From Eubacterium sp. (GTDB lineage Bacteria > Bacillota > Clostridia > Oscillospirales > Ruminococcaceae): a stretch of DNA of 64,000 bases. The number at the start of each line of letters is the position of its first letter. The stretch's first letter is position 1. Below the pieces are notes generated by a model. It was given only the letters and a program-made list of their open reading frames with translations, was not told the DNA's origin and made no database searches. The DNA is taken from contig JAFLRX010000009.1 of assembly GCA_022511265.1 (NCBI GenBank), positions 1 through 64,000 on the forward strand. Reading direction: 5' to 3'. Shown piece by piece: positions 30,688-64,000 of the stretch. The position numbers were made by a program, and so were the translations under genes.

Positions 30688-30715
30688 AAAAATTTAGGTT
30701 TATTTACAAAAACTA

Positions 30716-30744
30716 TTGACTTTTTTAAAAAATTCACATATAAT
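30716..30744 (+). promoter_or_regulatory. Near-consensus promoter before the Abi gene
   Basis: TTGACT (30716-30721), 17-bp spacer, TATAAT (30739-30744). It starts transcription about 6 nt before the hairpin at 30757. Confidence 0.9.
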
Positions 30745-30756
30745 ATAAATAACAGA

Positions 30757-30794
30757 ACCCGACACGCCTCTCAACGATGCGTACCACGTCGGGT
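30757..30794 (+). ncRNA. Two-tier hairpin RNA upstream of the Abi gene
   Basis: ACCCGAC (30757-30763) pairs with GTCGGGT (30788-30794); inside it ACGC (30764-30767) pairs with GCGT (30779-30782), leaving a loop and a short bulge. A T-rich stretch CATTTTAC follows. The hairpin lies directly at the predicted 5' end of the Abi transcript. It may be an independent small RNA, an attenuator or a 5'-UTR structure; which one cannot be decided from sequence. Confidence 0.55.
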
Positions 30795-30822
30795 CATTTT
30801 ACTATTATAAGAGGAATGACAA

Positions 30823-31743: not shown

Positions 31744-31877
31744 TATCATCTGATTATGACAGCATGCAACCGTTTTTATATGGTAGTGGTCAATTGTACA
31801 TAAAATATTGCGTATAGATACTTATGCGATCCTGTCAGTTTTTTAGCTTTTCAAAACAATGTTTGAAAATGATCCAT

Positions 31878-31915
31878 AAAAAAGAGCTAACTGATTTTTC
31901 AGTTGGCTCTTTTTG
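31878..31915. terminator. Bidirectional terminator after the Abi gene
   Basis: AAAGAGCTAACTGA pairs with TCAGTTGGCTCTTT, with T-runs on both outer sides. It serves the Abi gene (plus) and the small gene ending at 31918 (minus). Confidence 0.85.
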
Positions 31916-31917
31916 CT

Positions 31918-32082
31918 TTACAACTTTGTGAAATACCATAAGAAAGTATACTCATTGAAATCAATTCTATTTCCGTTATCATCAATCACATAGATACCAT
32001 CAATGATATAGGAATACTGATACTCCGCTCCGATATGGAAACAGCCCTCATTAGGAATATGATGACATCTACATTTACCCAT
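31918..32082 (-). CDS. Small Cys/His-rich protein (54 aa), unknown function
   Basis: A 54-residue protein with a strong AGGAGG ribosome site seven bases before ATG. The N-terminus MGKCRCHHIPNEGCFHIG has three cysteines and three histidines, enough for one metal site; the rest is acidic and aromatic (EYQYSYIIDGIYVIDDNG). It is AT-rich like the Abi gene and unlike the radical SAM gene 22 bp upstream, so it may belong to the same imported segment. I do not recognise the family. The bidirectional terminator follows its stop immediately. Confidence 0.72.
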   Translation of the reverse strand: MGKCRCHHIPNEGCFHIGAEYQYSYIIDGIYVIDDNGNRIDFNEYTFLWYFTKL

Positions 32083-37668: not shown

Positions 37669-37690
37669 AAGGGGGTAAATTTACCCCCTT
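37669..37690 (-). terminator. Perfect palindrome between giant gene and SBP gene
   Basis: AAGGGGGTAAA and its exact complement TTTACCCCCTT, followed on the minus strand by TTTGCG. It probably acts as a terminator or attenuator after the giant gene. Confidence 0.65.
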
Positions 37691-37705: not shown

Positions 37706-40700
37706 TTAAGACCTCTTACGTCTTACAAGTTCTTCGATAACGTATGCAGCGCCTGCCATTGCCAGCAGCCATACTATCATGCTGCCTTCAAGCTGTACGC
37801 CGGTATTTACGTTGTCGCCGCCGTCATCAGGCTGATCAGGATTGATCGGCTGATAGCCCAGATAGATGTTGGTGCGGTTGTCGCCGTCGATCTTCCATAC
37901 CTTGCCGTAGTAGTTGACAGCTTCCTTAATGAGGGCGATGTCTATATCGGTGGTTATACCCTCGGTAGGAACATTGCTGCCGTCTATAGTATAACGCTCG
38001 CCGAGTATGTTTTCCTTATCAAGGCTCATTGCGTCATACCGGAATACGGTGGTAAACATCATGCCGTCCGGCTTTACGGTTCTTATCCTGTACTGGTACG
38101 GTACGCCGTTTGCGTCCAGTACATCCAGCTCTTCAAAGGTGAATACGCCGTTTTCGTCAGTTACAGCGGTAAGTCCGTTATAGCTCTCGTATACCCAGTT
38201 CTCGTGTACCGACTTGTCACCTGCGGTTGCTGCCTTTTCAGTGTCGGGTAGCTTGGTCTCAGGCTTGGTCTCATCGTCTACAGCGAAGAAGCTGTCGCCT
38301 ATCGTAGGATCGCTGTCGCCTATAGTGACATCCTTATCCACAGTCTCAACGACCTGAACCTCAAGGTATACTGTCTCGCCTGCTATCGGCTTTTCGTCAT
38401 CATCAAGGATGCCGTTGCCGTTAGTGTCTACGAACATTACACCCGAGATGCTGCCCTTGCGGTACTCCATAAGTCCGGCGTCAATGCCTGCTACCGAGTG
38501 ACCGGAAGCTATATTGTAGCCGTTTATGATGTACTCAGGCTGAGTATCGTCATCCGCAAAGTCCGCAAGTATTATCAGATCGCCTGCCTGCTCAAGGTAG
38601 GAGGTCATTTCATTGAGGTCGCTGTCAAGCTCTCCTCCGTTGGACTGGAATACCGTAACATCATAGTTATCCGGCAGATCCTTGATCCTTACTCTATAGC
38701 CGTAGAGAATGTACTCTCCGTCTTCGCCTATACCGTACAGCTTGAGGTTAGCAAAACCGTAGCGTCCGTTCTTATTGGTATGTGTGCTGAGCTCGCCGAG
38801 TACCTTCCACTCGCCGTCAACATAGCCCATAAGCTCCAGAGTTACCTCTATGCCGGGTATGCCTTCTTCATCCTCATAGATGCCGTTGCGGTCAGCGTCA
38901 TCCCATACGATACCGCTGATGCTGTGACCCTCAAACGGTGCAAAGCCCGCGTTGTACTGGGTCAGTGTAACACCCTTTACTATGTCGTAATCAGCGATCA
39001 TGTAATGTCCGTTGATGTCGTTACGTCCGTTCATATTTACGCCGAGTACGATATATCCGTCCATCATTTCGGACAGCTTGGTGTCCGCCTTGATTATCTG
39101 ACGGTCAGCGGTGAGTGCGCTGTCGCGATCTCCGTTGGCAACCTGATAATAGGTTGCGGGTTTGTTGCTGTCGGTTATCAGCCACAGCTCATAGCCGTAG
39201 AGATATCTGTTCTCGCCGTCCGTGCCGAATACCGGCAGTTTATCTGCGGTATAGTTGCCGTTGGGCTGGGTCTTAACTGTCTTGTAGTACTCTGCGTCTT
39301 CGCTGCCGTTGTCGAGTATCCACTCGCCGGTCGCTTCATCATAGCGATAACGCTTGAGTCCTATCTTATAATTCTCAAGGCCTCTGTCTTCTTCGGTGAT
39401 AAGACCGTTATAGTCTATATCCTCAAAGACATTACCCTTTATTGCGCCGGGCGTGTAGAGGGTAAAGCCGGCATTGTATTCGTCTCTGTCCTCTGCCATG
39501 GTGACATCGCGTCCAGCTACATCGAAGTAGCTGTCGGTATCACTGTCTGACTTATGGGCAAGCACGATATAACCGTCCTGTACCTCCGGAAGTGTCTCGT
39601 CAGCCTTTATCAGTCTGCCGTCTATTGTCAGCGCGCTGTCGCCTATACCGTTACCGAACTGATACTTGGTAACCGCATAGCCCTCAGGCTCGCTTATCAT
39701 AAACAGCTTGTAGCCGTACAGATACTTCACTTCGTCTATCTCAACGTAGGTGTAGAGATTATCGAATACATATCTGCCCTTGCCGTTTGTCTTAGCGGTT
39801 GCGAAGTATTCTTCATCCTCGCCCTGTGCCAAGATCCACTCGCCGCTCTCCTCGTCGTAACGATAACGCTTCAGGCCTATCTCGATGCCGGACATCATGA
39901 TATCATCATCGTCTATCAGACCGTCATAATTCTCGTCGTCGAATACAACGCCGGTGATCTGTGCGGTTTCGTATATCGTAAATCCAAGGTGATATCCGGT
40001 TACATCCACGCCTTCTGCTACGTCGTAGCCTTCAACGTAATCGGAGAACTCGTTTACGTTTTCGTCAGCGCCGAGCTTTCTCGAAATGATAATGTATCCG
40101 TCCTTGATCTCGTCAAGATCTTCCTCAGCCTTTACAAGCTGGTTGCCGGTCAGCATCAATGTGCTGTCGTCGTCGCCGCCTACCTGATACTTGGTTATCT
40201 CCAGCTTTTCGCCGTTAGGTCCTACCGGTTGCTCGATAAGATAGATCTCATAGCCGTACAGATGCGGTGTATCGTTTTCGCCGTCCTCACTGTGGGTGGG
40301 AACATTTTCAAATACATATACGCCGTCCGCGCCGGTGACTTCCGTCATATACCAGAGAGGCTGATTGTCCTCAGGCTTCTCTTCTTCGATATCTCCGTCG
40401 CCGATTTCGCCGCCCTCGGTCTTGCCGTCGCCGATTTCCTCGTCGCCGGTCAGCTTGCCGATTGCAGCCAGTACGCTTTCAACCGCAAAGCCTACGACTT
40501 CCTCGGTTTCGGGCTCTTCGGGCTGCTCAGGCTCGGGAGCATTTATCTCAGGTACATCAACAGGCTCGCTGTTGCACAGTACCCACTCGCCGTCAATGTA
40601 ACGATAACGCTTGATGCCTACCTTTACATTGCTCAGCGGCTTGTCGGTCTTAGCGTCATAGATACCGTCACGGTCAACGTCTATGAACGCCGTACCGGTT

Positions 40701-52700: not shown

Positions 52701-55700
52701 CAGATGCCGTCTTCGGGGATGAAGTACTCGTCACGGATACCGTTGTAGTTTTCGTCGATAAAGACGTTCATGCCGATAAAGCCCTTACCTACTTCGATAA
52801 AGCCGAAACCGAACCTGCTGAATTCACCGTACTGGCCGTTGAATTCGCCGTTTACTAATCTTTGGTCCGGATAACCGTCTGCGTCAAAGTCTACCGCGGT
52901 CGGATTTACCAAGAAGGAGGGAGTCATATTCCAGCCTGTTGTCTGGTCGTACGCAAAGTCATTGTCGTACCATTTTACATCACCGTACGGATACGCAAGC
53001 GCGGTATCAGCGTGGGTGATAGGAACAGGCTCGTGCATCTGATCCTCATTTATGTCAGCTATATGGGCAAGTGCCACATACGACTTATAAGGATACAGTG
53101 TGGTCTTGAAGTAGCCGTCGGAATCGGTGGTCAGTATAGTGCCTTCCGGAATCGGATTGCCGTTTACATCCAGCTCGATATTGCCGTTGGCGTCTCTCTT
53201 GAACCAAGATATCTTCTTGCCGTTGTAGTCATATACTTCGGCATATTCATACTGCTCGTCGCCGAGGTCCTTCAGCTCGAAGATGAATACATTTACGTCC
53301 TTGTACGGCTCTTCGTCGTCGGTAGATTCTCTGTTGAACCAACCGTCAAGAGTGCCGCTGTGACCTGCTGTATTCTCATCATGCCAAGCATAGCCGCTGT
53401 AGAGGTAGGAGTGTGCAACACCGAGGTTGTAAGAAGTCATCTTCTTGTCATACTCACGGAATGCCGCATAGTACTCAGCACTCAGCTCGTATATGGTCTT
53501 TTCGGTCTCTACGCCGTCTTTTACAACAGTATACTTGCCGCTGACGTACTTACCGGCAGCCTCGTCATAGTAAACAGTGCCGCTGATAGGTTCGCCGTTG
53601 TCGTCGGTTATCTTTAATATCTCACCGGGATCATATACAGCCTCGATATCGATAGGATCGGAGATCATTATCAGATGTTCAGCCGGCTGATTATCCAGCG
53701 GGATACCGCCGTCAACACCGTCGTTGCCGTAGTCGGGCAGGATGTCGCCTACACGGTATACGGTAAGCGCGGTCTTGCCGTCAAAGCCGATGGTTCTGGT
53801 GGTCAGCGCGTACTCGTCATATCCCTCGGGGAAGGTATAACGCAGACGGTATCTGCCCGGCTCGATGTTGGACAGCATGAAGTAACCGTTGCGGGCATTG
53901 ATATCCATCTCGGTGGTATAGGTCAACGCCTTGCCGTAGGTTGCGTATTCATTATCACCGGTGGGGTTAACCTTTAACTTACCGGTGGTCTCGTCGATCA
54001 CGCACCAGCGTCCCTCTTCATTGAGGGCTACCGGCTCGCCGAACGAGTTAACGGGATAGCCGTTTTCATCCAGCAGCTCTACCAATACGCCGTTGATGCC
54101 CGGGTCGTCAAGTGATCCGTCTCTGCTGTAGTCAAGGTTCTTGGTTGCTCTGTGGAACAGCTTTCTCTCAAATGCTATTACTTCTTCGGTGGTCTTGATT
54201 ATCGGGCGATCCTTCGAGTCGAGTACAAGCTCGCCGTTTTCGTCAACCACATATTCGGGGTTGCCGTCGGCGTCAAGCACAGGCATCTGCACCGTCGTGG
54301 TGTTAACAACATAGCTTGCGTCGTCTTCAAAGGTAGCGCTGTAGTTCTCATCGAACCATACATACTGACCGATATAGCCCTTATCGTATGCTGCGCCCGG
54401 ATATACACCGGCTCTGTTAGAGGTCTGGAGTGCTACGTCGGTTGCGCCGTTGAGACCTGTACCGGATGTTACGAACAGGTTCCAGCCGTAGAAGCCTTCA
54501 GTAGCGTTACCGATCTCATTTTCGGTCATGTTTATCTCGTCGATAAAGAACGGATATTGAGGCAGGTTGAGCGGAGCCTTCATATTGTATGAAAGCTTGA
54601 TCTGATTTCTGCCCTTCAGCTGGAAGTTGGAAACAGGCTCTACATAGATAAGCATTATCGTTCTGCAAAGCAGTTCAAATTCCTTCGCGCTTAGGGTTGC
54701 GCCGTAAGCCCTGAATTCTTCAAGACTTACCAGTCCGCTGGCATGCTTTTCAGCATCGCCCTTATACAAGTCATCAAAGAACTTGTCGTTAGATGCTCCG
54801 TCAGGAGTCTTTGTCATCGCTTCGATATCCGCTATGTTGCCCTTGGTTATCGTGCCGTTGTCGAAATTGAACGGACCGATCCAAATGCTTACGGTATCGG
54901 TATCGGTAAGGTCGGTCGTACCTTCTGTTGCGGATACATGCTCTACCTTTATGCTGTCGATATCCAGATAGCCGCTCCAGAACGAGGATGTTCCGGCTCT
55001 CGGGTCTCTGTTGATGATACCGTCATCACCGATGTGCGGCAGTATATCAAAGATTATCGGCTTGGAGAAGCTCATACCGTCACTCATGTTGGTGACTGTC
55101 GAGTTGAACGAGTAATATGTGCCCTCCGGTACCATAGAGGGTCTGTACATACCGTTACCTGCGGTGTTTCGTCCGCTGCCGTAGTCGGAGTAGGAAGACT
55201 TCGAGGACTCCATACCGAGACCCTGAGTGAACTGGATACCGCCGATGGTGTGTACTATCGCACTCTCGTTATTGAATTTCTGGTTGTTGTTAATGTCGCG
55301 CTCATCAGATACATACGCGTGTACCGATGTAGTGTCGCCGTATGCCAACGGCAGGTAGGGTATGAACGAACCCTCCTTAAAGCCGTAGCCCTTGGTCGCC
55401 AGCATTGCGGCTTCCATCGCAAGTACGCCGTTGGTGTTAACAGGCAGGATGTACTCTACCGCAACGCTCCAGCCTACAGGCAGTACGCCCTGGAAGCTGA
55501 AGGTCATTACCTGCATCTGCAATACCTTGTCAGCAGATACCTCGGTGGGCTTGGAGTAGTAGCTGAAGTCGGAAAGCTTAAAGGCTATATCGACTCCCGG
55601 TACGGCCTTAGTTCCGTCCGGCTTGAGGACATACCATGCCCATTGCGCGTCATAGGTACTGATAGAATCCTTCAACTCAGGATGAGCGAGCAGAGAATCC

Positions 55701-58700
55701 TGATAACATGCTTCTACCGGGTTGTCGGCGTCGGCATAGTTATCTATCCTATCCATTATGTTTTCAAATCTGTCAAAGCTCAGCTGCTGAATGTAAGGAA
55801 GTACTATAGATATCTGCGGGTTAGAGGTGTTATCCTCGGTCTTGTTAGTAAGGCTGGGGATAGTCTTGCTGCCCTCGTCTATCTCTTCCTGGGTATAGTT
55901 GTGCAGCTCTGCCTTATACTTCAGTGTCGCGTAATATCCCGCGGGAAGAACGACGCTGTCGCTCCACTTGATTACCGGTATGATCTCGCCGGTCTCGGGA
56001 TCTTCTATCGCGCCTGAGGTATAGTTCCACATATTAAGGTCGATACCCATTACAGGGTTCTCACTTGCGACAAAGTATCCGCCTCTTGCAGATTCAGAGA
56101 TCACCGCGCTTTGCTCGACATAATCGCTGTACTGCGCCTGAACGGTCGCATAGTGGTTAACATGCAGTTTTTCAAGGTGTGTATTAGTTCTTGTCAGTGT
56201 AACAAACGCCGAATTGCCGAAACGGGTCATGGTCATATTGTTACCGTCGGAGAAGTTAACGTTAGATGTAACGCTGTCAGGTAAATTCCACAGCGAGTTG
56301 TCAAGTCTTGCTACGTTGAGGGTACCGTCGTCGATATCGTCTAATTCTTCGATCTCAGGAGTTGCGGGATCGCCGTCTATAGCAAGTCTGAAGCCGCGGG
56401 GAACAAGTATATCATCATTCGGTACATCCTGATCCGCGTCGATGACGTAACGTACCTGATAGATGCTGGTGCGGAGTGCGCCAGAATTGATAGCCAGCAG
56501 ATGGTTTTCGGTTATCGAAAGACCTTCAGCAGGTGTAAGCTCTACCCATGCGGAGTTGGTCTCGCTGTCAAGGTTCAGCAGATATGCTTCCAGAGCATCC
56601 TCATCGTTAGAGGTAACATACATTGTCTTACCGCCGGAGGATTCCCATCTGGTCAGCTCGATATGGCAATACTCGGGGTCTTCATCGCATATCGGACAAG
56701 CTGTGTTAACCACGCCGTCAATACATCTGCTTGTGCAGGTGCATACCAGGCACTGGTCGGGATCTTCCTGGCAGGCCTTGCAATCCTGCTGAGTATTCTC
56801 ATCGCATCTGCCGAGCGAATCAACGCAATGGCATCTCGGTATTCCCGCCTCGCACTTGGAGAAGTCTGCCTTACAGATCGGGCAGTCGCGGTTTACGTAC
56901 AGGTCGCTGCACTGGTCGTCTTCTTCGCCGCAGATGCAGCCCTGCGGACGCTCTTTAGGCTTGTAGGTAACCTCAAACTTTACGTCCGAAGGTGCGGTCA
57001 CGTTTATCAGCTTCTTGAGGGTCTCATCGGTCTCCAGCTGGTACTGCATATCGTTGTAGTATGCAGGGTTGGTTTCAGCCAGCTCAACGGAGGTACCGGT
57101 ATCAAAGAGTTTACCTACCTGAATATATACGTGTATCTTCAGGTTTTTGTCAAGAATGGCTGCCGCTTCTTCGCTGAGGCCGGTCTTGGTGCGGGTATCC
57201 CATACACCTGTAGCTATACCCAGCACCTCACCGCCGACGCTCTCGTCTTCTGCGGTTGCGGGGGTCAGGGTCATAATATCGGTTCCGCGGTAGGGTATGC
57301 GATAATCAACCACAAACTGCTGAACTGCCGCGCCGGTGTTGATTATCTCGTCGATGTACATCATCATGCGATATGCACCCTTTACCGACGGGTCATTTAC
57401 TCTTGTCTGAGCATTACCGCTGATATCGGGGTTGATGATCTCTATCATCGGCTCGGAGGTATCAACACGTATCGTTGCCGCCGGCTTGAGCAGGATGACC
57501 TTAGCGGTCACGTCGCTCGCGTGTACGTCAAACGCATCCTCATAATACTCGCCGTCAAGGTCATGGTCGACTGCGGGTACAATAATGGGAAGTGTACCGG
57601 GCTTTACAAGCTCGCCGTCTTCGTCAAATTCGGGAGCCTCGCCGGGTATAATGGTTATATCGCTGTCATAAGCGGGTCTTACATATTCGTCTCTTTCGGG
57701 GTTGTACGGGGACGGCAGCTGGTCGATATTATAACCGTACTGCTTTACTTCATCTTCGTCTTCGTCGCCCTCTTCTACCTCTTCATCCTGGAGATATGTG
57801 CCGCTCATGTCATCGAAGGTTACATAAGTGTATGCAACATAGTCCTCGTCCCAGCTGTCGGGTGCGCTCATTATGCTGGAGTCGGGATCTTCCGCTCTGT
57901 CTATCATAGCAGGTATACCTACTACCATAACGTCGCCGTTGCCGAAGTAACCGGGCAGCATCTCACCGTCTACGTATCTCTGATAGGTGATGTCATCTTC
58001 ACTGCCGGGTGCGTTCTGGTCGCCGGGGGTGATTATAGTAATTCTTACGGTCTCGGTCAGATCATCGTCGTTTTCTTCACGATAGATCTCTACGCTGAAA
58101 CCGCTGTCCTCGAGATCGTCTAAAGTAAGACGTACTATCGGATAGGTCGTTACCGTGCCGTCCAGCGCAACACTGTTCGCGCGCTTGTACAGCAGGTAGA
58201 AGTCGCCTAAGCCGTTCTCTTCGTCGTACTTCTCGTAAGTAACTATTCTCGGCAGCACGAAGCTAACCACGATCTTGGCGTGCTTTACATCGCCCTGATG
58301 GTCGTAGTCTCTGGTATTTACAGTGGTATTGCCGTTCTTCCAGCTCTCGCGTACTTCGTTGCTGTTCTGGTTGAATACCTCAGCGTAATAGTACAGCTCG
58401 TCGCCGTACTGTACTGGCAGGGTATCGTCAAATACGTTGGTGGTCTTATCCCAGGCAGTGCTGCCCTCTTCAGGATAATACTCAAATGTCTCAGGCAGCT
58501 CTGCGAGCTTGTTCGCAGCCAGTGTTGCCGCGCTGCCGGTACGTCCGCCGAGCCATCCGTAATAGCCGAGCCAGTTGCCCGCAGTGCCAAAGCCGCTGCT
58601 TGCATAATCCTCAGTAGCCTCTGTCGTGGAGACAAAGCTCATGTTCTCAATGCTCGGAGCCTTGATGCGGATACGCATAGTGGTATACGCAGCCGAGTCG

Positions 58701-61700
58701 GTGTTACCGTTCGCGCTCTTGTCGTTGCTGAGGTTTACGTCTACCCAATCAAGGACATTGCATAATTCGCCGTCCTCGTTGGTGAGTGCGGGATCCTTCC
58801 ATTCTTCCAGTACTATCTTAGACTTGGTTTCATCCAGCTCCCAATAACGCTTGTCGCCCTTATTATCGGTAGCGTCTATCAACGAATATGTGTGCGATCT
58901 GATGTCGCTTTCGTCGTCGGTATACGGTATCTTGACAGTGCGCGGTACATCCGGTATAGCACCGTTGCCTACACGGTCGATACGGGTATCGCCGGGGCTG
59001 CGGAACAGGTTGGTCGAGCCTCTGGTCTTTATATCATATGTAAAGTTGCCATAGCCGGTAACAGTCTTGCTGCCTACCCAGAACGGGTTCTCGCCTGCGG
59101 CATTCAGCGCGGTGCTGTTGGCGTCGGTTATTTCGCTGTCAAGGATAAACTTATAGTTTTCCAGCTTGCTGGACAGCAGGGTATGTGCCTGCTGGTACTG
59201 CTTCAGCTCGTCGCCGTGACCCTTAGGCTGGCTCTCGGTAAAGAACTTGAAGGAGAACTTCAGCTTTTGTCCGGAGAGTACCGTTGCCTTATCGGCATTT
59301 CTTATATCGGTATCCTTCGGGATAAGAGTGATCTTAAATCTCTCGGATTCTTTAAGATATTCTACCTTGGTATCGTAGTAATGTGCTACGTCGGTAGTAC
59401 CTATAGTCGCCGTCCAGTCAAGCTCGTTAGTTGTATTAAAGGTGCTGTTTGCATCCTTTTCAAAGAGCTTGCCGTCTGTTGTCTTAGGCGTGATACCGTA
59501 AGGCAGTATCTCGGTGATTACGGGATAGTACAGCGTACCTTGTGCGCCGCCGTCGGTGGCATAGGTATGCTTCCACTTGTAATGCGAGGAGATCCAGCCA
59601 TAGTGGTCATCATCATAAGGCTGCCTGTATCCCTCATAGTTGGGGATATAGTATTGCAGGTAATAGTAGTTCTCTGCGTAGATGTTGAGGATGTTGGTCT
59701 CACCCTCGCCGTTTACGTAGTAGTTCTCTATATCTGTCTCGGATTTGCCGACCGTTGCCCATGTGCGGACAAACGGCTTGCGGATGTGCGCGCGTGTACC
59801 GGTCGATGCATATGTGGTACGTTTACCGCTCGCATAGGACGCCTTTGCGTTGTCCTTGTCAACGGTAGTCGCAAGCTTATAGTTAGAATCGCTTACGGTA
59901 TTATCAAGGTATACCTCGCGGTTGCCGATGTTCATACCGTCGATGTACGGCATGTTGGGCGAGCCGTTTACGTAGTAGGACCAAGGCTCGTGTCCCCATG
60001 CCAGATCTCTTGCGGTGTCAACGTATCCGTAACCGTTATAGAGGTAATCCATACCGCCGTACTGGGTGCTGATATATGCACCGTAGTTGCCGCTGTTGGT
60101 AGCGGTGCTGGTATAGGTGTCGGTCTTGTAGTTATAGGTGTTGCCCCACTGGCTGGTGGTGTCGTAGATCTGATAATAGCTGTCCTGCTCTACATCAACG
60201 GGACGTGCAAATACCTGATCGTAGAAGTACTCGTCATCCGGGGTCTTGTATACGTGTGACGGCAGGTCTACCTGCATCATATAACCGAAGTTAGAGCCTC
60301 TGCCAAACCACTGGTTAAGCTGCTTGTTTACGGTTATCTTGAGTACCCATGCAGCCTCTTCAACATCGTATTCTCTGTAGTCCTTGTCTACATAAGAGTC
60401 TTTAGTCTTGTTCATGTTGGCCTTGCTGAGTACGGGGTCCTGCATGATGTCGGAGGTGAGGTATTTACCGGCAGCGTCGCCCGGCATTTGCAGTATCTCT
60501 ACCGTTACCATGCCGTCGGTAGTTACATCGGTGTAAGTTGTGCCGTTATATGCGATGGTGGTGTCGAGGAAGCCGTTCTTGGTAGAAAGGCTGTTGTTTA
60601 CCTTGACCTTGATAGACTCTGCTATCGCCTTCTCAAGCGCCGCCTTTTCAGACGCGGACAGGCTTACGCCTACCTTGCCTGTAAACGCAGTCGGCTCTAT
60701 GCCCTCAGGCATTACATAGATGAACTCTACGCCGCTCTTTACTGCGTAGTCACCGTAGTTGTACGCACCAAGGCTGGTGATGAACGACTGGTCATATTGC
60801 AGGGTGGTTATGCTGTCGTCGTTAAATCTTCTGAGACGATAGCTGCCCTCGTAGTTGTCATTCCATGAATAAGTGCTGTAAGAGCTCTTATTTACAAAGC
60901 GGTCATAGCGAGAATCCGACACATAGTTCGCATAGTTGGTCGGCAGATACTCAGTGTTGGAGTCATTAGAGTTAACATTAGCGACAAACTCCGAGCTTGC
61001 AGCCAGCCATGCGGTCTGCAGGTGTGTTCTTGCCTGTGCCCATATCAGTGCCTCGGTATGGTCGCCCTGCCACAGCGTTGCATTAGCGTCGCTGTTAGTC
61101 TTGCGAGCATTGCCTATCTCCTCGCGGTATGCCATCAGTAACGTATAGTAGTCTCTGTTGGCTGTTCCCGCGCGGGATTTACTGTAATACCGTACACTCG
61201 GCAGGTTTGCGTATGCCGCTGTGGTAGACGGCGTCTGGGTGCTGTAGTAGGTTACCTGCTGATACTTCGCTACGCTCATATCGGAATCCTTGAGGTAACC
61301 GTTTTTACCCGTAACATATGTATTGTAATATGCGTCGCCGTAGGTGTCGTTGGTGTCACCCGGCATATATACGGTAGCATCCTTGAGGTATTCGTATCTG
61401 TCTACGTCGGGGTTCAGCTTACCGCTGACAGCGACGTCGTGATACAGATAGTTCATATCCATCAGCGTGCCGGAGTTGTTGAACTGCGTCAGGCTGCCGT
61501 TATAGCTGTTGGTTCTTACTTCACCGATAAACGGATAAGAAGCAGTCTCGTTATGATAGTGCGGATAGCCGTAATAGAAGCTGTGTACCTGACCGTACTC
61601 ACCCATCTTGGGGTAGTAATCTACAAAGGTATCGGAATTTCTTACGGTGTACGCCAGCGGCAGGTCTTCTTCTCTTGTTACCGCGCTGTACTGTACCTCT

Positions 61701-64000
61701 ATGTTTTCGCCGGGCTCTAACCATGCGCCGGTCTCAAACTCTATCTTATACACATAGAAGGTCCTATCGGTGGAGACGGTGTTGGCGTTGGTTCCTTTCA
61801 GCCTGATATCCGCAAACTGATGTCCGTCACCCATGCTGATACCGTCGGTATCGCTCTTGGTGGTGATCATATCTCCGCCGTAGTCGGGGATATCCTTGTA
61901 TTCAGTCACGGTTATCTTGAACTTCGGTCCGCCGTCCACCATATTTCCGTCGGGATTCATCCAGCCGGTCTTGTTCGCGTTGGTGGCATTGTCGTACCAC
62001 TTAACGCTCAGCTTATAGCCGCTCTTGGTGGTGATTACTGTATTTACATCATGCCACTGACCGTCAGCAAGCTCTGCTATTGCGCTGGCCTCAATATACT
62101 CAGGTATCTTGTCAAAGATGACAGGCTGAAGCAGCCTACCCTGTACCTCAGTGCTGGAGGCAGGGTTGGCGTTGAGTATGCTGGTCTTGAGCCATAATGT
62201 ATCGCCCGGACGATAGCCAGTCTTTTGTGCCGCACTTGCGTTGTATTTCTGGAATGCGACAGTCTCGTCGGAGAATATCTGGGTATGCAGGGTTATCAGC
62301 GGTCTCTCACGGCGTATAACAAGGCTTGCCGCGCCGTTGCCGACCAGCGTTACTTCCTTGTCAAGTATCTCCTTAGTAGCCGCTGCCTGTGTACCGTTCA
62401 ATGTTGTTGCTACGGAGTTATTCACATTTTCGGTGTGCTTGTGGGTGTACTTTACATCCGCGGATACCGACATGGTATAGGTATCGGATGCAGCACCGTT
62501 AACGTTGCCGCCATTTGTCTTGCGGACGTCTCTGTAACGTCCTACGCCGTACAGACGGAACGCGCCTGTCTGTCCGCCCGCGTCAACTACATTACGGGTT
62601 ATCAGGGTGTTGTTCTTATAGCCGCCTGCGTAATCGTCCGTATACGCGGGTATATCCTCGTAGGTCCAACGTATACCTATAGCGTATCTGATGAAGTGCT
62701 TGCCGCTCAGATTCTTGGTGGGATCTGTTTTTGCAGCCTCTACATCTTCGTCGGTGTATATCTCGCTCTCGGGTATCCATACCAGATATTTGTCGGTGGT
62801 ATTGATATCCGCGAACTGATCGGTATAGCTGTCAACTATGTTAGAGATACCTGTACCAATCTTGTCGTCATATATACCGTCCTCGCCCTTATATATTCCG
62901 TCGGCGGGGTACAGCTCGTCATGGGTGAGAGGAGCGGAGCCGCTCTGGTACAGGCTGTCTGCGCCGTCCTCCTTACCCTTGTCACCTACGACAAACAGGT
63001 ACTCAACCTTTGCGTTTGCTCCGCCGGTCGGATGCGCAAACGTCGGCATCTTTGTCAGGACAAAGTCTCTTACAAAGCTGTTGTTTACGTTATGTCCGAA
63101 CAGAACGGTGTACTCAACAACGTCAAGGTCGTGCTTTACGTCATTGTAGATATTATAGCCGGAGCTGCCCGTCTGCTTAAGCGTGAGGGTCATGCCCTGA
63201 CCGTTATACGAGTCGTTTACGTTATCAAACTTATACTCAACCTCGAGGTTAGCACTGTTGTACAGGCTCATCACGTTGTATACGCGTGACATGTATGTAC
63301 TCTCGTTGGGTATTTCGCTGTTATTATAATATTTGCTCTTACCTCTGCGGTAATGTATCGCGTCGCCGCTCAGGCTGGTATAGTCGGAGCCTGAATCCAG
63401 GTTATTGAATATAGAGGTGCTGTACGGATACGGCCAGTTAGAGCCGTCGCCGTTGGTGCGGTATACCTCATACTGAGAATAGGTATGGGTAGGTCTTGCA
63501 GCCGCCTCAAATCTCGGATATACGCTGGGTACGGTGGAATCGCCTGTCTTTATCTGGCTTGCCTTGGACTCGTCCTGTCCGCCCTCGGGTATTATCTGAG
63601 TAAGAACGGTAATAGTGAGCTTTTCACCGGGCAGCAGCTCGTAAGCCTGCTCGGCCGCGCTGTTGCCGCGTGTTACCATTTGGGTAAGGGCTTTCAGCTC
63701 GCCGACAGATATATTCAGCTGCTTGTAATTGGTGTCTGTGCTGCCGTTAATAAAGTAATATTCACTGCCATCCTTCATAACAAGGGTGGTGGTGTCTCCG
63801 TATACAGGAGTTGCGGCGCTGCCGCTGGTGGACGCGTATGCGATTATCTTATCATGCGGTATGCCGTTTGTACGTCCGGACGCAGGCACATAAGCGCCAT
63901 TTTTGTAGTCAATAAGTCCGGCGGTAGTTTTGCTTGTATTTATCTTCCAGCCGATTATGCGCTGACCTGTAGGCGCGACAAATCTGAGGTCGGGATGATA
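37706..64000 (-). CDS. Giant SdrD/Cna-B-repeat surface adhesin, 5' end beyond window
   Basis: One reading frame runs without a stop from the right window edge to the TAA at 37706: 8,764 residues and no start in sight. A GTG at 63889 is internal, since 37 open codons (YHPDLRFVAPTGQRIIGWKI and on) precede it. Order from the N-terminal side: a beta-rich Tyr/Thr/Asp-rich region without obvious short repeats (64000-57000), an 18-Cys module (56940-56665), more beta-rich adhesin-like sequence (56660-54400), and about 27 SdrD/Cna-B-like domains of 150-280 residues (54390-37900). The protein ends in a membrane anchor MIVWLLAMAGAAYVIEELV and RRKRS. Repeat domains start with ISGxxWxDxNYDGxxD, a D-x-N-x-D-G calcium-type loop. 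It is a cell-wall or membrane-anchored filamentous protein, probably for adhesion. No sortase or pilin genes are in view. Confidence 0.93.
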   Translation of the reverse strand, partial: YHPDLRFVAPTGQRIIGWKINTSKTTAGLIDYKNGAYVPASGRTNGIPHDKIIAYASTSGSAATPVYGDTTTLVMKDGSEYYFINGSTDTNYKQLNISVGELKALTQMVTRGNSAAEQAYELLPGEKLTITVLTQIIPEGGQDESKASQIKTGDSTVPSVYPRFEAAARPTHTYSQYEVYRTNGDGSNWPYPYSTSIFNNLDSGSDYTSLSGDAIHYRRGKSKYYNNSEIPNESTYMSRVYNVMSLYNSANLEVEYKFDNVNDSYNGQGMTLTLKQTGSSGYNIYNDVKHDLDVVEYTVLFGHNVNNSFVRDFVLTKMPTFAHPTGGANAKVEYLFVVGDKGKEDGADSLYQSGSAPLTHDELYPADGIYKGEDGIYDDKIGTGISNIVDSYTDQFADINTTDKYLVWIPESEIYTDEDVEAAKTDPTKNLSGKHFIRYAIGIRWTYEDIPAYTDDYAGGYKNNTLITRNVVDAGGQTGAFRLYGVGRYRDVRKTNGGNVNGAASDTYTMSVSADVKYTHKHTENVNNSVATTLNGTQAAATKEILDKEVTLVGNGAASLVIRRERPLITLHTQIFSDETVAFQKYNASAAQKTGYRPGDTLWLKTSILNANPASSTEVQGRLLQPVIFDKIPEYIEASAIAELADGQWHDVNTVITTKSGYKLSVKWYDNATNANKTGWMNPDGNMVDGGPKFKITVTEYKDIPDYGGDMITTKSDTDGISMGDGHQFADIRLKGTNANTVSTDRTFYVYKIEFETGAWLEPGENIEVQYSAVTREEDLPLAYTVRNSDTFVDYYPKMGEYGQVHSFYYGYPHYHNETASYPFIGEVRTNSYNGSLTQFNNSGTLMDMNYLYHDVAVSGKLNPDVDRYEYLKDATVYMPGDTNDTYGDAYYNTYVTGKNGYLKDSDMSVAKYQQVTYYSTQTPSTTAAYANLPSVRYYSKSRAGTANRDYYTLLMAYREEIGNARKTNSDANATLWQGDHTEALIWAQARTHLQTAWLAASSEFVANVNSNDSNTEYLPTNYANYVSDSRYDRFVNKSSYSTYSWNDNYEGSYRLRRFNDDSITTLQYDQSFITSLGAYNYGDYAVKSGVEFIYVMPEGIEPTAFTGKVGVSLSASEKAALEKAIAESIKVKVNNSLSTKNGFLDTTIAYNGTTYTDVTTDGMVTVEILQMPGDAAGKYLTSDIMQDPVLSKANMNKTKDSYVDKDYREYDVEEAAWVLKITVNKQLNQWFGRGSNFGYMMQVDLPSHVYKTPDDEYFYDQVFARPVDVEQDSYYQIYDTTSQWGNTYNYKTDTYTSTATNSGNYGAYISTQYGGMDYLYNGYGYVDTARDLAWGHEPWSYYVNGSPNMPYIDGMNIGNREVYLDNTVSDSNYKLATTVDKDNAKASYASGKRTTYASTGTRAHIRKPFVRTWATVGKSETDIENYYVNGEGETNILNIYAENYYYLQYYIPNYEGYRQPYDDDHYGWISSHYKWKHTYATDGGAQGTLYYPVITEILPYGITPKTTDGKLFEKDANSTFNTTNELDWTATIGTTDVAHYYDTKVEYLKESERFKITLIPKDTDIRNADKATVLSGQKLKFSFKFFTESQPKGHGDELKQYQQAHTLLSSKLENYKFILDSEITDANSTALNAAGENPFWVGSKTVTGYGNFTYDIKTRGSTNLFRSPGDTRIDRVGNGAIPDVPRTVKIPYTDDESDIRSHTYSLIDATDNKGDKRYWELDETKSKIVLEEWKDPALTNEDGELCNVLDWVDVNLSNDKSANGNTDSAAYTTMRIRIKAPSIENMSFVSTTEATEDYASSGFGTAGNWLGYYGWLGGRTGSAATLAANKLAELPETFEYYPEEGSTAWDKTTNVFDDTLPVQYGDELYYYAEVFNQNSNEVRESWKNGNTTVNTRDYDHQGDVKHAKIVVSFVLPRIVTYEKYDEENGLGDFYLLYKRANSVALDGTVTTYPIVRLTLDDLEDSGFSVEIYREENDDDLTETVRITIITPGDQNAPGSEDDITYQRYVDGEMLPGYFGNGDVMVVGIPAMIDRAEDPDSSIMSAPDSWDEDYVAYTYVTFDDMSGTYLQDEEVEEGDEDEDEVKQYGYNIDQLPSPYNPERDEYVRPAYDSDITIIPGEAPEFDEDGELVKPGTLPIIVPAVDHDLDGEYYEDAFDVHASDVTAKVILLKPAATIRVDTSEPMIEIINPDISGNAQTRVNDPSVKGAYRMMMYIDEIINTGAAVQQFVVDYRIPYRGTDIMTLTPATAEDESVGGEVLGIATGVWDTRTKTGLSEEAAAILDKNLKIHVYIQVGKLFDTGTSVELAETNPAYYNDMQYQLETDETLKKLINVTAPSDVKFEVTYKPKERPQGCICGEEDDQCSDLYVNRDCPICKADFSKCEAGIPRCHCVDSLGRCDENTQQDCKACQEDPDQCLVCTCTSRCIDGVVNTACPICDEDPEYCHIELTRWESSGGKTMYVTSNDEDALEAYLLNLDSETNSAWVELTPAEGLSITENHLLAINSGALRTSIYQVRYVIDADQDVPNDDILVPRGFRLAIDGDPATPEIEELDDIDDGTLNVARLDNSLWNLPDSVTSNVNFSDGNNMTMTRFGNSAFVTLTRTNTHLEKLHVNHYATVQAQYSDYVEQSAVISESARGGYFVASENPVMGIDLNMWNYTSGAIEDPETGEIIPVIKWSDSVVLPAGYYATLKYKAELHNYTQEEIDEGSKTIPSLTNKTEDNTSNPQISIVLPYIQQLSFDRFENIMDRIDNYADADNPVEACYQDSLLAHPELKDSISTYDAQWAWYVLKPDGTKAVPGVDIAFKLSDFSYYSKPTEVSADKVLQMQVMTFSFQGVLPVGWSVAVEYILPVNTNGVLAMEAAMLATKGYGFKEGSFIPYLPLAYGDTTSVHAYVSDERDINNNQKFNNESAIVHTIGGIQFTQGLGMESSKSSYSDYGSGRNTAGNGMYRPSMVPEGTYYSFNSTVTNMSDGMSFSKPIIFDILPHIGDDGIINRDPRAGTSSFWSGYLDIDSIKVEHVSATEGTTDLTDTDTVSIWIGPFNFDNGTITKGNIADIEAMTKTPDGASNDKFFDDLYKGDAEKHASGLVSLEEFRAYGATLSAKEFELLCRTIMLIYVEPVSNFQLKGRNQIKLSYNMKAPLNLPQYPFFIDEINMTENEIGNATEGFYGWNLFVTSGTGLNGATDVALQTSNRAGVYPGAAYDKGYIGQYVWFDENYSATFEDDASYVVNTTTVQMPVLDADGNPEYVVDENGELVLDSKDRPIIKTTEEVIAFERKLFHRATKNLDYSRDGSLDDPGINGVLVELLDENGYPVNSFGEPVALNEEGRWCVIDETTGKLKVNPTGDNEYATYGKALTYTTEMDINARNGYFMLSNIEPGRYRLRYTFPEGYDEYALTTRTIGFDGKTALTVYRVGDILPDYGNDGVDGGIPLDNQPAEHLIMISDPIDIEAVYDPGEILKITDDNGEPISGTVYYDEAAGKYVSGKYTVVKDGVETEKTIYELSAEYYAAFREYDKKMTSYNLGVAHSYLYSGYAWHDENTAGHSGTLDGWFNRESTDDEEPYKDVNVFIFELKDLGDEQYEYAEVYDYNGKKISWFKRDANGNIELDVNGNPIPEGTILTTDSDGYFKTTLYPYKSYVALAHIADINEDQMHEPVPITHADTALAYPYGDVKWYDNDFAYDQTTGWNMTPSFLVNPTAVDFDADGYPDQRLVNGEFNGQYGEFSRFGFGFIEVGKGFIGMNVFIDENYNGIRDEYFIPEDGIWVSEPIMPDNNYLYSDGTYKPVDENFTDADLTADGNYVGVKFILEQYYYDEDTNTWIQIEIPVQRDGVTPLAEVTNIITWSDGGTYSFNDLPAFIFIPDEVEVEPGTDPTDPTIEEGGEETPVTGTNHLAGYKVKIDMSTVNGEYYPTKFMITNDPNYDRDSNVLTSDYNLDAASELPPYMAFGNGNNDEFIIVADALDDADDPRVLVTYNGKHYRNYGIVRNDVDAGFALREYATISGTIWDDINYDGLQDAYDSETIINADGFEEVVDILEPGLAGYKVELLPYYYWAGEWHEMPHGQINLGNDENPDWFDFDENFWLTDISGDGVTPDAYNRVKPLGEYRFEHLRAHTLLDANNDGEYERVLVSYRVKFSNDVIVDGEDGYKISDKEVDRAVTRLNIGTDDTIDSDLIVETMLLNDINDIYDDNHPGVNSILSDYIIVAVQIAGPDADDGTVPPEVEANYGAEELGNWNSLLIKNELGYFDIYKVVSDDTHDAGLVEFEKGEISGIVWNDSGIVGGTPAEIAASDYNGKMDDGEAGIDGVKVTLQQYYWDPNGGIGGQGAWVKVNGFTLPGTDPADGIDYLLTSNGGKYAFEDLDTYVLVGDEYYLASYKLVVTNPDNDKYAETLYSIDVNGDAVYQNDLHNGKLTPDTNDAKEYIIVAKEAVKATNNKGEQVYNDYYTKQYLDKYYDLVTARDRDGYDAGYKEFEQKSVSGYIWNDIVYDGYMNIDDDGDQPLSGVTIGLKRYYHNGTTWVECNDDPNAATAPATPSEYFKTTLTDADGKYSFDDLYAYVRIGDKYYLAGYKPEVVKSAIDKNGVVDEDIYGVTWYQMTVTGDQINSDLCREGKTGELFSQSLTTKDEYAILATPITSATTSNNKSQYKVQYTWPGDEEPTTFDLVTASDKDGYDGGFKEYEKSTISGTIWSDSVYDGIMDDSEAGIPGVTITLEQYYLDDSNNWHYVGDIATATTSGTTGTLADGYFEFADVSTYYELPTTGEHKLAGYKLKVTGGISMNDWALTYYRINTTDSVSDIIKIDDVYYLNAADEYVIVADVRLEGAYASKTDPYERSYTYKGVTTKYDILTAVDAEELTGFDGGYKAYEMSTISGWLFDDEDDNGRRNMVDGNMEGLSPNLKKSMQFYTPNTVTLTAYAYYYDGTTWREYTEGGTQKTYSATITYTGNGSYEIPVPTQFMVGGKTYIAGYKLYADGQPAKTSNVEHLANNGVSDSALYKTLDGNNNYVYSVTKTNYNNVYVGLLAEECDGYIIAANTATVTNGAVNTNVQTLGATVYDMAAQRDLIDYNLGVMAEQDSAITGVAFFDVNYDGLYNEDDGDYILTDVNIGLKRYYYDDTTNKWIEDNGTAAKTYNGKQYYDITDANERTITDAVTGDSTTYPDGTYIFTNLPTVYENNGKSYLYGYRVFLLDMPVVADVEEVVITKYYMPVTDEEATNSALMISAPNEVTKYDHSTLSECKDGYIIPSRKFRDTEDQSSFGSAAAGGYNTGAKLTRHNYNLGFTEKTTATISGIVWDDKNYDGIQDLEPDDGGSGALPGDGTTPVYEEGIEGIDLELIPYYYDTVNGWKPLTETLIGATEYAKYALTTTTDADGKYSFENVLSYATVDGKPVLVSYKIKVDLDITDIDDITINGNDYAVTRWRVGIDDTIDSDLIASTMLLNETSEYIIVAMQIKDTNNDGRHLDEILAQYGEDGLRNRAQLLIENALGAFDIYKTVDEDTYDAGLTQFEKSSLAGIIWSDDNYDGIYDNTSETGISGVKITLEQYYYDPTDSNADDWGWVYVGAYGTDTTLSSGKFIFNDVDTYVLTNGKYYLAGYKAKVTGYPDMTEYAITLYRVTAAGKRVSDLKNDYLMADGEYAIVADEAEAPEDTYYIREYGDVKYDIVTAVELLDEYDGGFTPFTSGSISGWIFDDADYDGIIDRSETSADDETVKAETTLADVTIGLERWYLDVDGKWKPDNGDGDYYKTVTIGQELPVSDDYNYIFTDLPIFKEDNNGKRYLYGYKLYMIKGQTDYTPTKYQVADGDDDSALKIGGKNKQIIKADPTLYEMKDGYIVLGEKVIATAKNPEFTIGGYDIVIGQKLDSYNAGLIKFEKGSLSGRIWNDDNYDGIMDFGDEPEEGIAGVQIRLERYYYKDGKWVKDNALLVPVITDANGNFTFTNLETHVIDEDGNYYLAGYKALVSKHADLAKYAVTLYRVNDTDRVSDLNGDNYLMAADEYAIIASTVPTETPASGDTEYDNYYVVEYDGAKYDIIYAEDRDEYDGGYKEYETSFISGQVFQDWNYDGIINGDDDGHVDEFTTELAYGIAQLTGQELTITAKPYYYNGSKWVEYTDAAETYTATVAYDSTDGKYEIEVPTQFRVNGTNYPAGYKLYVDGLPTGYDVTEHLVLNGAGDDSELYKHENSGSVMYGVTKTNKNGTYTDDLLAPRNEERNGIIVAAHYVDNSTGIYINAWDIDGSFDIIGGRNITDYNLGYTQIQTSSISGRAFIDKDNDGIFNNNDVLLKNVKVGLKRYILKNGKWTLDNDGNGDYYRTELTTTGLYVFSDLPTSTDDAKPYLYGYMVYLVEMPEGTDNLKIAKYQMADSMLNDSALLFVGDRVIKADRTLEEYLRGSVVAADGSVSTDDLIITADKADLTDPSLSDVDIVEGYNTTSGVIRERYNLGFIEKENAKISGIVWDDKNYDGIQNKYTVGDSEENEPGIDGISLELVPYYYLNGKWTALPNTADYADYRLTTVTKDGGKYEFTDVLSSATVNGKLVLVSYKIAVTTDIKELDYAVTRLHIGANKNIDSDLHASTMLLNAQDDYIIVALQIADAADANGDVSANYGDENLGNRDEMLIVNELGYFDVNKVVDEDTYDAGLIKFATGSLSGIIWSDADYDGILDSNEKGIPEVEISIEQYYYKDGKWIKTDEEFEPVVTDNNGNFTFDELSTYVLVDGKYYLAGYKAYVSEHPDLSKYAITLYRVNDTNRVSDLKDDYLMASGEYAIIADEAAEPENTHYVREYNGVKYDLITARDLDEYDGGYKEYETSVIKGQVFVDWNFDGIINEDDDGKPDDFAAALQDVLKDKPLTITAKAYYYDGSKWQEYTVNGVQAEYSVKITEKTAQGKYEIEVPTQFRVDGKNYLAGYKLYADNLPKGFNVTEHLALNGAGDDSELYKYEASAGNIEYAVTKTDKSGNYKNNKDEERSKGMIIAAAPATRLNNNVNIKQLEGAFDLGEGRELTDYNLGYMKEQTSSISGIAFIDEDNDGIFNNAIDTALEHVKVSIKRYVLRDGEWQLDNGDDSEHPGYYQTVETDSIGYYIFDELLTHSSDGANGDIPHLYGYEVYLTGMPEGTENLVIGKYQMNGGYLDSALRLSGRIIKADTTIEEYLNDYVITADKVRGNGDGLSDVDVIEGYHTSVRKDRTEYNLGFIEKQTAMISGIVWDDENYDGIRDEDEDGIKDIEVQLVPYYYDNDQQKWIELDDESYRHETTTDAEGRYIFTPVRSYAMVDGVRVLVSYKIAIVTDIKELDYAATRLHVGDKTTDSDLIAATMWLNEDSDYIIVAEQIPDDEVDDRYGDPSLGNREEMLIENALGYFDVNKTVDETTHDAGLIKFDKGSLSGTIWSDADYDGILDDDEEGIADVQIRLEKYYYKDGKWINVNSELVTEPMDGGDMIKTNISIVPVMTDANGNFTFTGLDTYVLIDGEYYLAGYKALVSKHPDLDQYAITLYRVNAAGERVNDLKDDYLMADGEYAIVADEATKPENTHYVRECNGVKYDLITALDLDEYDGGYKEYEISIIKGCVFDDLNYDGLINGYKGKLDGFTYEIREAIKNNPLTVIAKAYYLDEDEWKAIYDADGEPITYTAVITDTTPNGEYEIEVPTQFRVDGEIYLAGYRLTVAGMPEGYHITRHLVNNGIVADNELIKIGEGENTSYRLTKTEMDDDYITGGYRAGKAEEYIGMVVAAPPANESTTYANTNIRGDYDVASGRVLDNYNLGYVGKQTAIITGTAFIDVDRDGIYDAKTDKPLSNVKVGIKRYRYIDGEWVLCNSEPVDVPEINAPEPEQPEEPETEEVVGFAVESVLAAIGKLTGDEEIGDGKTEGGEIGDGDIEEEKPEDNQPLWYMTEVTGADGVYVFENVPTHSEDGENDTPHLYGYEIYLIEQPVGPNGEKLEITKYQVGGDDDSTLMLTGNQLVKAEEDLDEIKDGYIIISRKLGADENVNEFSDYVEGYDVAEGVDVTGYHLGFTIYETAQITGVVFDDENYDGLIDDDDIMMSGIEIGLKRYRYDEESGEWILAQGEDEEYFATAKTNGKGRYVFDNLYTYVEIDEVKYLYGYKLFMISEPEGYAVTKYQFGNGIGDSALTIDGRLIKADETLPEVQDGYIVLAHKSDSDTDSYFDVAGRDVTMAEDRDEYNAGFTLYTPGAIKGNVFEDIDYNGLITEEDRGLENYKIGLKRYRYDEATGEWILDNGSEDAEYYKTVKTQPNGNYTADKLPVFGTDGENRYLYGYELWLITDSNKPATYYQVANGDRDSALTADRQIIKADTKLSEMMDGYIVLGVNMNGRNDINGHYMIADYDIVKGVTLTQYNAGFAPFEGHSISGIVWDDADRNGIYEDEEGIPGIEVTLELMGYVDGEWKVLGELSTHTNKNGRYGFANLKLYGIGEDGEYILYGYRVRIKDLPDNYDVTVFQSNGGELDSDLNEMTSYLEQAGDLIILADFADDDTQPEYIINGYNIASGHSVAGIDAGLMEYRKGSISGVMFVDTNGNGILDDDEKPIAGETVYLEVQVVETVDKDVTIGDSDPTIGDSFFAVDDETKPETKLPDTEKAATAGDKSVHENWVYESYNGLTAVTDENGVFTFEELDVLDANGVPYQYRIRTVKPDGMMFTTVFRYDAMSLDKENILGERYTIDGSNVPTEGITTDIDIALIKEAVNYYGKVWKIDGDNRTNIYLGYQPINPDQPDDGGDNVNTGVQLEGSMIVWLLAMAGAAYVIEELVRRKRS
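37709..37835 (-). other. C-terminal anchor of the giant adhesin
   Basis: A Pro/Asp/Gly-rich wall-spanning segment (NPDQPDDGGDNVNTG) is followed by VQLEGSM, an approximately 19-residue hydrophobic helix and RRKRS. This is the layout of a sortase signal, but NVNTG stands in place of LPxTG. Confidence 0.7.
37900..38926 (-). repeat. Terminal two B-type domains of the giant adhesin
   Basis: The domain starting near 38926 (SISGIVWDDADRNGIYED) and the one starting near 38450 (SISGVMFVDTNGNGILDD) belong to neither of the recurring types A-D. The last carries an inserted acidic Asp/Thr/Glu stretch (TIGDSDPTIGDSFFAVDDET) at about 38220-38335. Confidence 0.75.
38927..42415 (-). repeat. Higher-order repeat block 4 (A-B-C-D-D-D)
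   Basis: Six SdrD-like domains. A at 42415 (ISGIVWDDENYDGIRD), B near 41885 (LSGTIWSDADYDGILD), C near 41340 (IKGCVFDDLNYDGLIN), then three D-type domains near 40710 (ITGTAFIDVDRDGIYD), 39965 (ITGVVFDDENYDGLID) and 39440 (IKGNVFEDIDYNGLIT). The first D domain holds a 60-residue acidic insertion (about 40350-40570). Confidence 0.8.
42416..44659 (-). repeat. Higher-order repeat block 3 (A-B-C-D)
   Basis: Four domains in 748 codons: A at 44659 (ISGIVWDDKNYDGIQN), B near 44080 (LSGIIWSDADYDGILD), C near 43585 (IKGQVFVDWNFDGIIN), D near 42975 (ISGIAFIDEDNDGIFN). By eye the domains are closer to their counterparts in block 4 than to other domains of the same block. Confidence 0.82.
44660..48142 (-). 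repeat. Higher-order repeat block 2 (A-B-D-B-C-D)
   Basis: Six domains: A at 48142 (ISGIVWDDKNYDGIQD), B near 47475 (LAGIIWSDDNYDGIYD), D near 46960 (ISGWIFDDADYDGIID), B near 46383 (LSGRIWNDDNYDGIMD), C near 45852 (ISGQVFQDWNYDGIIN), D near 45233 (ISGRAFIDKDNDGIFN). Confidence 0.82.
48143..52000 (-). repeat. Higher-order repeat block 1 (A-B-D'-B-C-D)
   Basis: Six domains: A at 52000 (ISGTIWDDINYDGLQD), B near 51205 (ISGIVWNDSGIVGG, with the calcium loop rearranged), a D/B hybrid near 50580 (VSGYIWNDIVYDGYMN, GLKRYYHNG, then a B-like second half), B near 49950 (ISGTIWSDSVYDGIMD), C near 49395 (ISGWLFDDEDDNGRRN), D near 48775 (ITGVAFFDVNYDGLYN). Confidence 0.78.
52001..54390 (-). repeat. Three divergent lead-in B-type domains
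   Basis: Domains starting near 54390 (GYIGQYVWFDENYSATFEDD), 53405 (YLYSGYAWHDENTAG) and 52795 (GFIGMNVFIDENYNGIRD). They share the W/F-x-D-E-N-Y core with the later repeats but have different lengths and loops, and belong to none of the A-D types. Confidence 0.7.
56665..56940 (-). repeat. 18-cysteine triple module inside the giant adhesin
   Basis: Three tandem units, each C-x-C-x(3-7)-C-x(6-8)-C-x2-C-x6-C: CICGEEDDQC..CPICKADFSKC, CHCVDSLGRC..CKACQEDPDQC, CTCTSRC..CPICDEDPEYC. The flanking protein has almost no cysteine. The pattern could bind zinc or form a disulfide knot. Confidence 0.85.

Follow-up and report, generated by a model that had tools for sequence, protein, structure and literature searches.

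The locus raises the question of whether a reading frame of more than 26 kb, still open at the edge of the DNA under study, is one gene encoding one surface protein and, if so, what such a protein would do. The window, i.e. the whole stretch of 64,000 nucleotides that was analysed, corresponds to positions 1-64000 of a contig (C57) of 73,913 bases, in a genome (G000) of 2.26 Mb that is assembled in 57 contigs and 99.87% complete. The initial annotation described a frame that is uninterrupted at 37706-64000 on the minus strand, open at the edge and devoid of a start inside the window. Our analysis confirms this frame, which has 8,764 residues in the window, as well as the 37 open codons that precede the GTG at 63889 (8,727 residues from this codon onward). 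This GTG, which had been given as the earliest apparent start, is not the start of the gene, since the frame runs on to an ATG at C57:72637. Extending the sequence to the right, as the annotation had advised for finding a signal peptide and a ribosome site, revealed AGGAGG with a 7-base spacer 5' of this ATG and an N-terminus that is signal-peptide-like by inspection and conserved in the ortholog found in another genome (G030). The full-length product has 11,643 amino acids, a mass of 1,296,589 Da and a pI of 4.32; the mass predicted from the window alone (above 0.95 MDa) was thus borne out and the protein, at 1.30 MDa, is larger than could be seen from there. The claim that it ranks among the largest bacterial proteins is justified insofar as it is heavier than Ebh (1.1 MDa; PMC9302970) but has to be set against a published Omnitrophota protein of 39,678 residues (PMC10066038). 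The features discussed below are the following:

37706..64000, minus strand: in-window part of the giant gene (residues 2880-11643 plus the stop of the 11,643-codon gene)
52778..64000, minus strand: in-window part of the N-terminal (distal) region, which is non-repetitive (residues 2880-6620, with residues 36-2879 beyond the window edge)
C57:65786-66829, outside the window: first cysteine-rich array (residues 1937-2284)
56657..56938, minus strand: second cysteine-rich array (residues 5234-5327)
37847..52777, minus strand: stalk of 25 tandem SdrD_B-type units (residues 6621-11597)
37709..37813, minus strand: sorting-type tail (residues 11609-11643)
37669..37690, minus strand: RNA hairpin in the gap that separates the giant gene from its partner
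36225..37655, minus strand: partner gene, encoding a 476-aa solute-binding protein of the SBP_bac_5 family

The giant gene is real, intact and selected. From base composition, about 558 stops would be expected in 11,643 codons and none was found (log10 P of finding none, -248), against 720 and 894 in the other two sense frames. Codon usage agrees with that of 18 neighbouring genes in all ten full blocks of 1,164 codons (r 0.67-0.85), whereas the +1 frame gives correlations of -0.02 to 0.20. Long plus-strand ORFs (150-1,117 aa) lie beneath the gene; they were rejected as antisense genes and look like shadows, because the antisense codon-phase frame, with no more than 64 stops in its 11,644 codons, has a codon usage that does not fit (r 0.02-0.14). 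Furthermore, the gene is under purifying selection: eight internal unit pairs, taken from the closer ones of the 300 possible, give dN/dS values of 0.14-0.33, and four blocks compared with the ortholog give 0.16-0.27, the latter being rough ratios with dS at saturation (1.5-3.1). The strong selection that had been surmised from the intact frame is supported by these values.

An observation on base runs, suggestive only, concerns C57:37706-72637, where runs of one base that are at least 5 long number 22, fewer than the 32.4 expected from synonymous shuffles (4 of 200 shuffles as low). The 18 neighbouring genes show the opposite (94 versus 70.8). For runs of at least 6 in the giant gene the difference is not significant (24/200 shuffles), and for runs of at least 7 the comparison is uninformative (105/200).

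The C-terminal stalk consists of units of 157-282 residues, with a mean spacing of about 199 aa, organised as old four-unit super-repeats. SdrD_B (PF17210) matches the piece covering residues 7713-11643 with 180.3 bits in eight stretches and the overlapping upstream piece with 34.1 bits, the curated Pfam cut-off being 29.7 bits; it is the only family over cut-off in scans of pieces that cover the whole protein. Six sub-threshold rows from the C-terminal piece (CarboxypepD_reg, Acyl-CoA_dh_M, DUF6795, bMG3, CarbopepD_reg_2 and Chibby) were set aside since no stretch passes alone, and none of them is an adhesive family by name. The units are predicted to fold as a transthyretin-like/CnaB-type beta-sandwich, which is among the fold families listed. 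The EF-hand-type calcium loop of B repeats, D-x-[DN]-x-[DN]-G, occurs in 22 of the 25 units, while three depart from it, which makes the stalk a putative calcium-binding structure. Intramolecular isopeptide bonds are not claimed, as the invariant columns of 28 two-unit rows hold no invariant Lys/Asn. If a unit spans 4-6 nm, the stalk would measure roughly 100-150 nm, a figure that is an estimate and not a computed length. SdrD_B is found at E 0.001 in 120 of 394 genomes of the order, in 47 of them over cut-off. Among the matches listed, the longest other frames have 4,783, 4,529 and 4,366 codons (contig ends shorten frames), so the giant is more than twice as long as the next-longest SdrD_B frame among them. 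The same genome has a second SdrD_B match, around 13473 of contig C6, in a frame of 2,702 codons (25 bits, below the Pfam cut-off).

Apart from the ortholog and the cysteine module described below, the N-terminal region gave no clear match in the collections searched. Its in-window part matches no Pfam/NCBIfam family over cut-off, and even at E 0.1 Pfam returned no family for residues 1-4212 or for the next 2,400. A structure model of the N-terminal 666 residues has a pLDDT of 30.8; a PDB sequence search with an N-terminal profile gave nothing meaningful (best E 0.31), and the N-terminal query found no relatives in genome_contigs, IMG/VR, plasmids or phages. Profile-profile comparison of 50 segments yielded one weak pair only as a candidate hidden repeat (residues about 746-850 versus 999-1107, 22% identical, with a probability of 71%); the two rows that follow, at 66% and 48%, fall in the same place, and the reversed control reached 7.6% at most.

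Two cysteine-rich arrays stand out in this region. The first has about 10 units by reading (8 strict pattern matches) and the second has 3 units of the form C-x-C-x(3-11)-C-x(6-14)-C-x2-C-x(4-8)-C. In the G030 ortholog, a single unit stands in place of the about ten of the first array, and the second array has no counterpart. We know of no name for this module (C-x-C...C...C-x2-C...C), which is not unique to the giant: it occurs in 16 of 394 genomes of the order, the present one included. Seven of the 20 loci returned were read and six of them (L132, L133, L134, L137, L138 and L149) carry one or more modules (CxC...C...CPxC...C), L143 being left out of the count as the script had picked another frame. 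A hydrophobic stretch lies near the C-terminus in four of the six (L132, L133, L134 and L149). For instance, L134 encodes a CD1107-like mobile element protein (PF14283, E 7e-66) in which a module of the same spacing lies near such a stretch. CD1107-like proteins have one module in about 250-290 residues, whereas the giant has arrays of about 10 and 3. Matches of the cysteine profile to nuclear-receptor zinc fingers (E 7e-4 and worse) were set aside, as they reflect cysteine spacing alone.

What would a protein of this architecture do? We consider it probable that one intact gene gives rise to a 1.3-MDa fibre, exported and fixed to the wall, whose stalk holds out a contact region. The single protein would be exported and its C-terminus fixed to the cell wall through the sortase-type tail; its last 5,000 residues, i.e. 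the 25 SdrD_B-type beta-sandwich units, possibly stiffened by calcium at their loops, would form a long stalk that holds out the N-terminal region, about 6,600 non-repetitive residues that include the two cysteine-rich arrays. In the manner of fibrillar adhesins, this region probably contacts a surface, a neighbour cell or a polymer, and the giant would work together with the membrane-anchored solute-binding protein whose gene adjoins its own. In its mode of action, the giant is most likely comparable to a fibrillar adhesin that is anchored to the wall and has an SdrD_B stalk.

In the Clf-Sdr MSCRAMM proteins, the ligand is bound by two adjacent IgG-like subdomains, N2 and N3. In the giant, residues 1-4212 have no Pfam match and the N-terminal model has a pLDDT of 31. 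Like the Sdr/UafA-type wall-anchored proteins of staphylococci, SdrD included, the giant has repeats of the B type (PF17210); B repeats are described as calcium-binding spacers (PMC3775735). It differs from these proteins in the number of its units, 25 where they have two to five (PMC3775735), in the length of a unit, 157-282 residues against 110-113, in its 11,643 residues and in showing no detectable A domain. Since no serine-aspartate repeat was found in the sequence preceding the tail, we do not file it as an Sdr protein. As for the definition of fibrillar adhesin-like proteins (PMC8286594), the 25 units provide the stalk domain, although 'SdrD' has no hit in the accessible part of that text, and the C-terminal position of the stalk is that of fibrillar adhesins in Firmicutes, which have their adhesive part at the N-terminus. 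However, Pfam recognised no adhesive domain in the whole protein, scanned in pieces, and the definition calls for a known one; this counts against the adhesin reading and is why the giant is said to work like a fibrillar adhesin, not to be one.

The gene is rare, lineage-restricted and sparsely distributed. A query of residues 1-700 matches one of 98 other genomes (G030) and a query of the C-terminal 430 residues matches one of 70 congeners, again G030. A two-row N-terminal profile found none in the 393 other genomes of the order, an even sample from which G030 is necessarily absent, its sequence being in the profile. The G030 ortholog is split by contig ends: a piece of 5,333 codons is colinear with giant residues 1-6234 (40, 44 and 42% identity), a piece of 1,234 codons is 50% identical over residues 10762-11641, and queries of residues 4213-7173 and 6901-9844 found no other G030 contig. 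In a third genome (G035, 99% complete), only the last 80 codons of an ortholog are present, at the start of a contig (C17, L113), cut in a Pro/Thr-rich stretch beside the solute-binding protein gene; searches found no further part of the giant there. Since the C-terminal 430-residue query did not pick up even these 80 codons, pieces that are short or divergent can be overlooked.

The partner gene starts 50 bases past the giant stop and encodes a protein with an N-terminal hydrophobic anchor, in which no lipobox was seen by eye. The solute-binding protein is found at the same position after the giant in G030 (44% identical) and G035 (46% identical). Among 71 genomes, its matches are strong in three (the present one, G030 and G035) and weak in three more (1.6e-5 to 7.7e-4). 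By contrast, the upstream flanks differ: the gene upstream of the giant is presumably a glycyl-tRNA synthetase in the present genome, while we take the G030 flank, by reading, to hold glycosidase-like and oxidoreductase-like ORFs. Therefore, the giant and its partner look like an accessory unit. The upstream gene stops (L002:13168) 530 bases before the giant ATG, and the gap holds a terminator-like hairpin (L002:13146-13118) and a promoter-like TTGACA-17-TAATAT (L002:12925-12897); the latter is no evidence by itself, as four promoter-like sites occur versus 3.4 in shuffles. Relatives of this synthetase occupy 586 stretches in genome_contigs; tblastn found the giant in none of 80 loci around glyQS, in which a search with eight window genes produced five hits, spread over four loci, and the gene order of the window was not seen after glyQS in the 16 of these 80 loci that were listed. 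The nearest genome_contigs match to the C-terminal part of GlyQS (83%) belongs to a Clostridia MAG from goat omasum, and many others to gut or faeces MAGs of Clostridia, Oscillospiraceae or Ruminococcaceae, which suggests that this uncultured Clostridia bacterium is of the gut type. The intergenic hairpin (z -3.8) has a counterpart of unrelated sequence in the same gap of G030 (L101:11840-11905, z -4.4), which suggests partial termination or 3'-end protection; a consensus terminator scan finds it terminator-like on the plus strand only, not on the gene's strand. Elsewhere in the window, an ORF that we take, by reading, to be Abi-like (30823-31743, plus strand) sits in a G+C dip (0.416 at 30001-32000) and was possibly acquired.

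The partner also bears on another function, a surface scaffold for nutrient capture, in which the fibre would hold a polymer or peptide and pass fragments to the solute-binding protein. The order of the two genes is kept in three species, even though the upstream flank differs between the two in which it is seen, and the partner is under purifying selection (dN 0.037 and dS 0.27 between G030 and G035). Nevertheless, the giant has no catalytic or carbohydrate-binding family over cut-off, and no ABC transporter genes were seen beside the partner, either among the window ORFs at 16000-37700 or among the minus-strand frames of more than 250 codons of the G030 contig. We regard this scaffold as unlikely.

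The tail reads NVNTG, a hydrophobic stretch and RRKRS, while that of the G030 ortholog reads NPDTG, a hydrophobic stretch and RNKNKKK. A scan with AAYCCNNNNACNGG, which covered the NPxTG motif only, gave 34 places versus 6 for the reversed pattern. In 16 of 30 loci, NPxTG followed by a hydrophobic stretch and a basic tail ends a frame, four of them (L164, L165, L175 and L180) being less sure, with frames of fewer than 140 codons within the locus; NPxTG is therefore a common tail motif elsewhere in this genome. Three tandem sortase-family matches, two over the Pfam cut-off, lie at C21:3335-6239, and G030 and G035 have three each, all over cut-off. After this sortase trio (L128:2996-6422, on contig C21) comes an ORF that, by reading, looks SpoIID-like. 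The NVNTG of the giant deviates from NPxTG in its second residue, which speaks against straightforward anchoring of this copy; its attachment may be weaker or absent. This mismatch, together with a first half that lacks stalk units, would fit a product that is not one wall-anchored protein, being released because NVNTG is not accepted or cut up after export. On the other hand, this copy retains an intact hydrophobic stretch and an intact basic tail, its ortholog carries NPDTG and the giant frame is uninterrupted, which leaves release or cutting rather improbable.

Quite doubtful, in turn, is a bulk coat or shield, i.e. a dense layer of long acidic proteins against phages, predators or antibodies that would bind nothing specifically. 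The giant is indeed acidic all along (pI 4.1-4.9 per 1,000 residues), very large and lineage-restricted; however, about 6,600 non-repetitive residues, colinear with the ortholog at 40-44% identity up to residue 6234, exceed what a passive coat needs. Finally, although so large a gene on a draft contig of a genome in 57 contigs invites suspicion of misassembly, a frame that artificially fuses separate genes can be practically dismissed: the repeats have diverged, with no exact repeat of at least 40 bases in the 34.9-kb gene (which leads us to reject repeat collapse) and one 57-base array reported by TRF in its in-window part, no homopolymer of at least 7 bases occurs, so that slippage is unlikely too, and the N-terminal part of the ortholog is itself one frame of 5,333 codons.

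The wall-anchored fibre with a distal contact region thus remains our preferred reading, and the single huge surface-protein gene of the initial annotation is supported by the signal-peptide-like start, the SdrD_B stalk and the sorting-type tail. A bolder version, which we offer as speculation with small odds of being right, is that the giant and its membrane-anchored partner form a dedicated two-gene surface machine moving between species as a unit: a calcium-stiffened 1.3-MDa fibre reaching more than 100 nm would capture a polymer, a peptide or a neighbour via the orphan N-terminal region and cysteine modules, and the solute-binding protein would receive or sense the capture without a transporter of its own.

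Surface proteins are the next large group of bacterial proteins of more than 5,000 residues after peptide and polyketide synthetases (PMC11573180). Embp (1 MDa) and Ebh (1.1 MDa, predicted 320 nm), with about 50 repetitive domains, are likewise single giant surface proteins of similar mass (PMC9302970). Ebh is associated with three-helix bundles (from a title in the references of PMC9302970), whereas the giant has a beta-sandwich SdrD_B stalk and is more than half non-repetitive. The Giant1-5 proteins of Apilactobacillus kunkeei (3,000-8,000 residues) are also very large and extracellular, and two of the five are known only from this species and two close ones; Giant1-4 begin with beta-solenoid domains and all five genes sit side by side (PMC12863079), whereas here there is one gene with a solute-binding partner. 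The giant ORFs of Omnitrophota are similarly poorly conserved for the most part, with few annotated domains; the 39,678-residue example from V. archaeovorus has 42 predicted transmembrane helices, whereas only the C-terminal hydrophobic stretch was noted here (PMC10066038). A literature search in general terms, the protein being nameless and so not directly searchable, returned nothing recognised as this giant.

Bacterial surface fibres of this kind are known, and the giant is a version of exceptional size and sparse distribution. What is new is the combination of its size, the orphan N-terminal region, the cysteine arrays and the retained solute-binding partner. It shows, in intact form and with an ortholog, what size one surface-protein gene can reach in a 2.26-Mb genome, of which its 34.9 kb make up 1.5%, and what keeps such a gene intact: blocks of several units were duplicated long ago and then came under purifying selection. 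Moreover, the orphan N-terminal part (about 6,600 residues) and the solute-binding partner that has been kept raise concrete, testable questions on the purpose of such fibres in gut bacteria.
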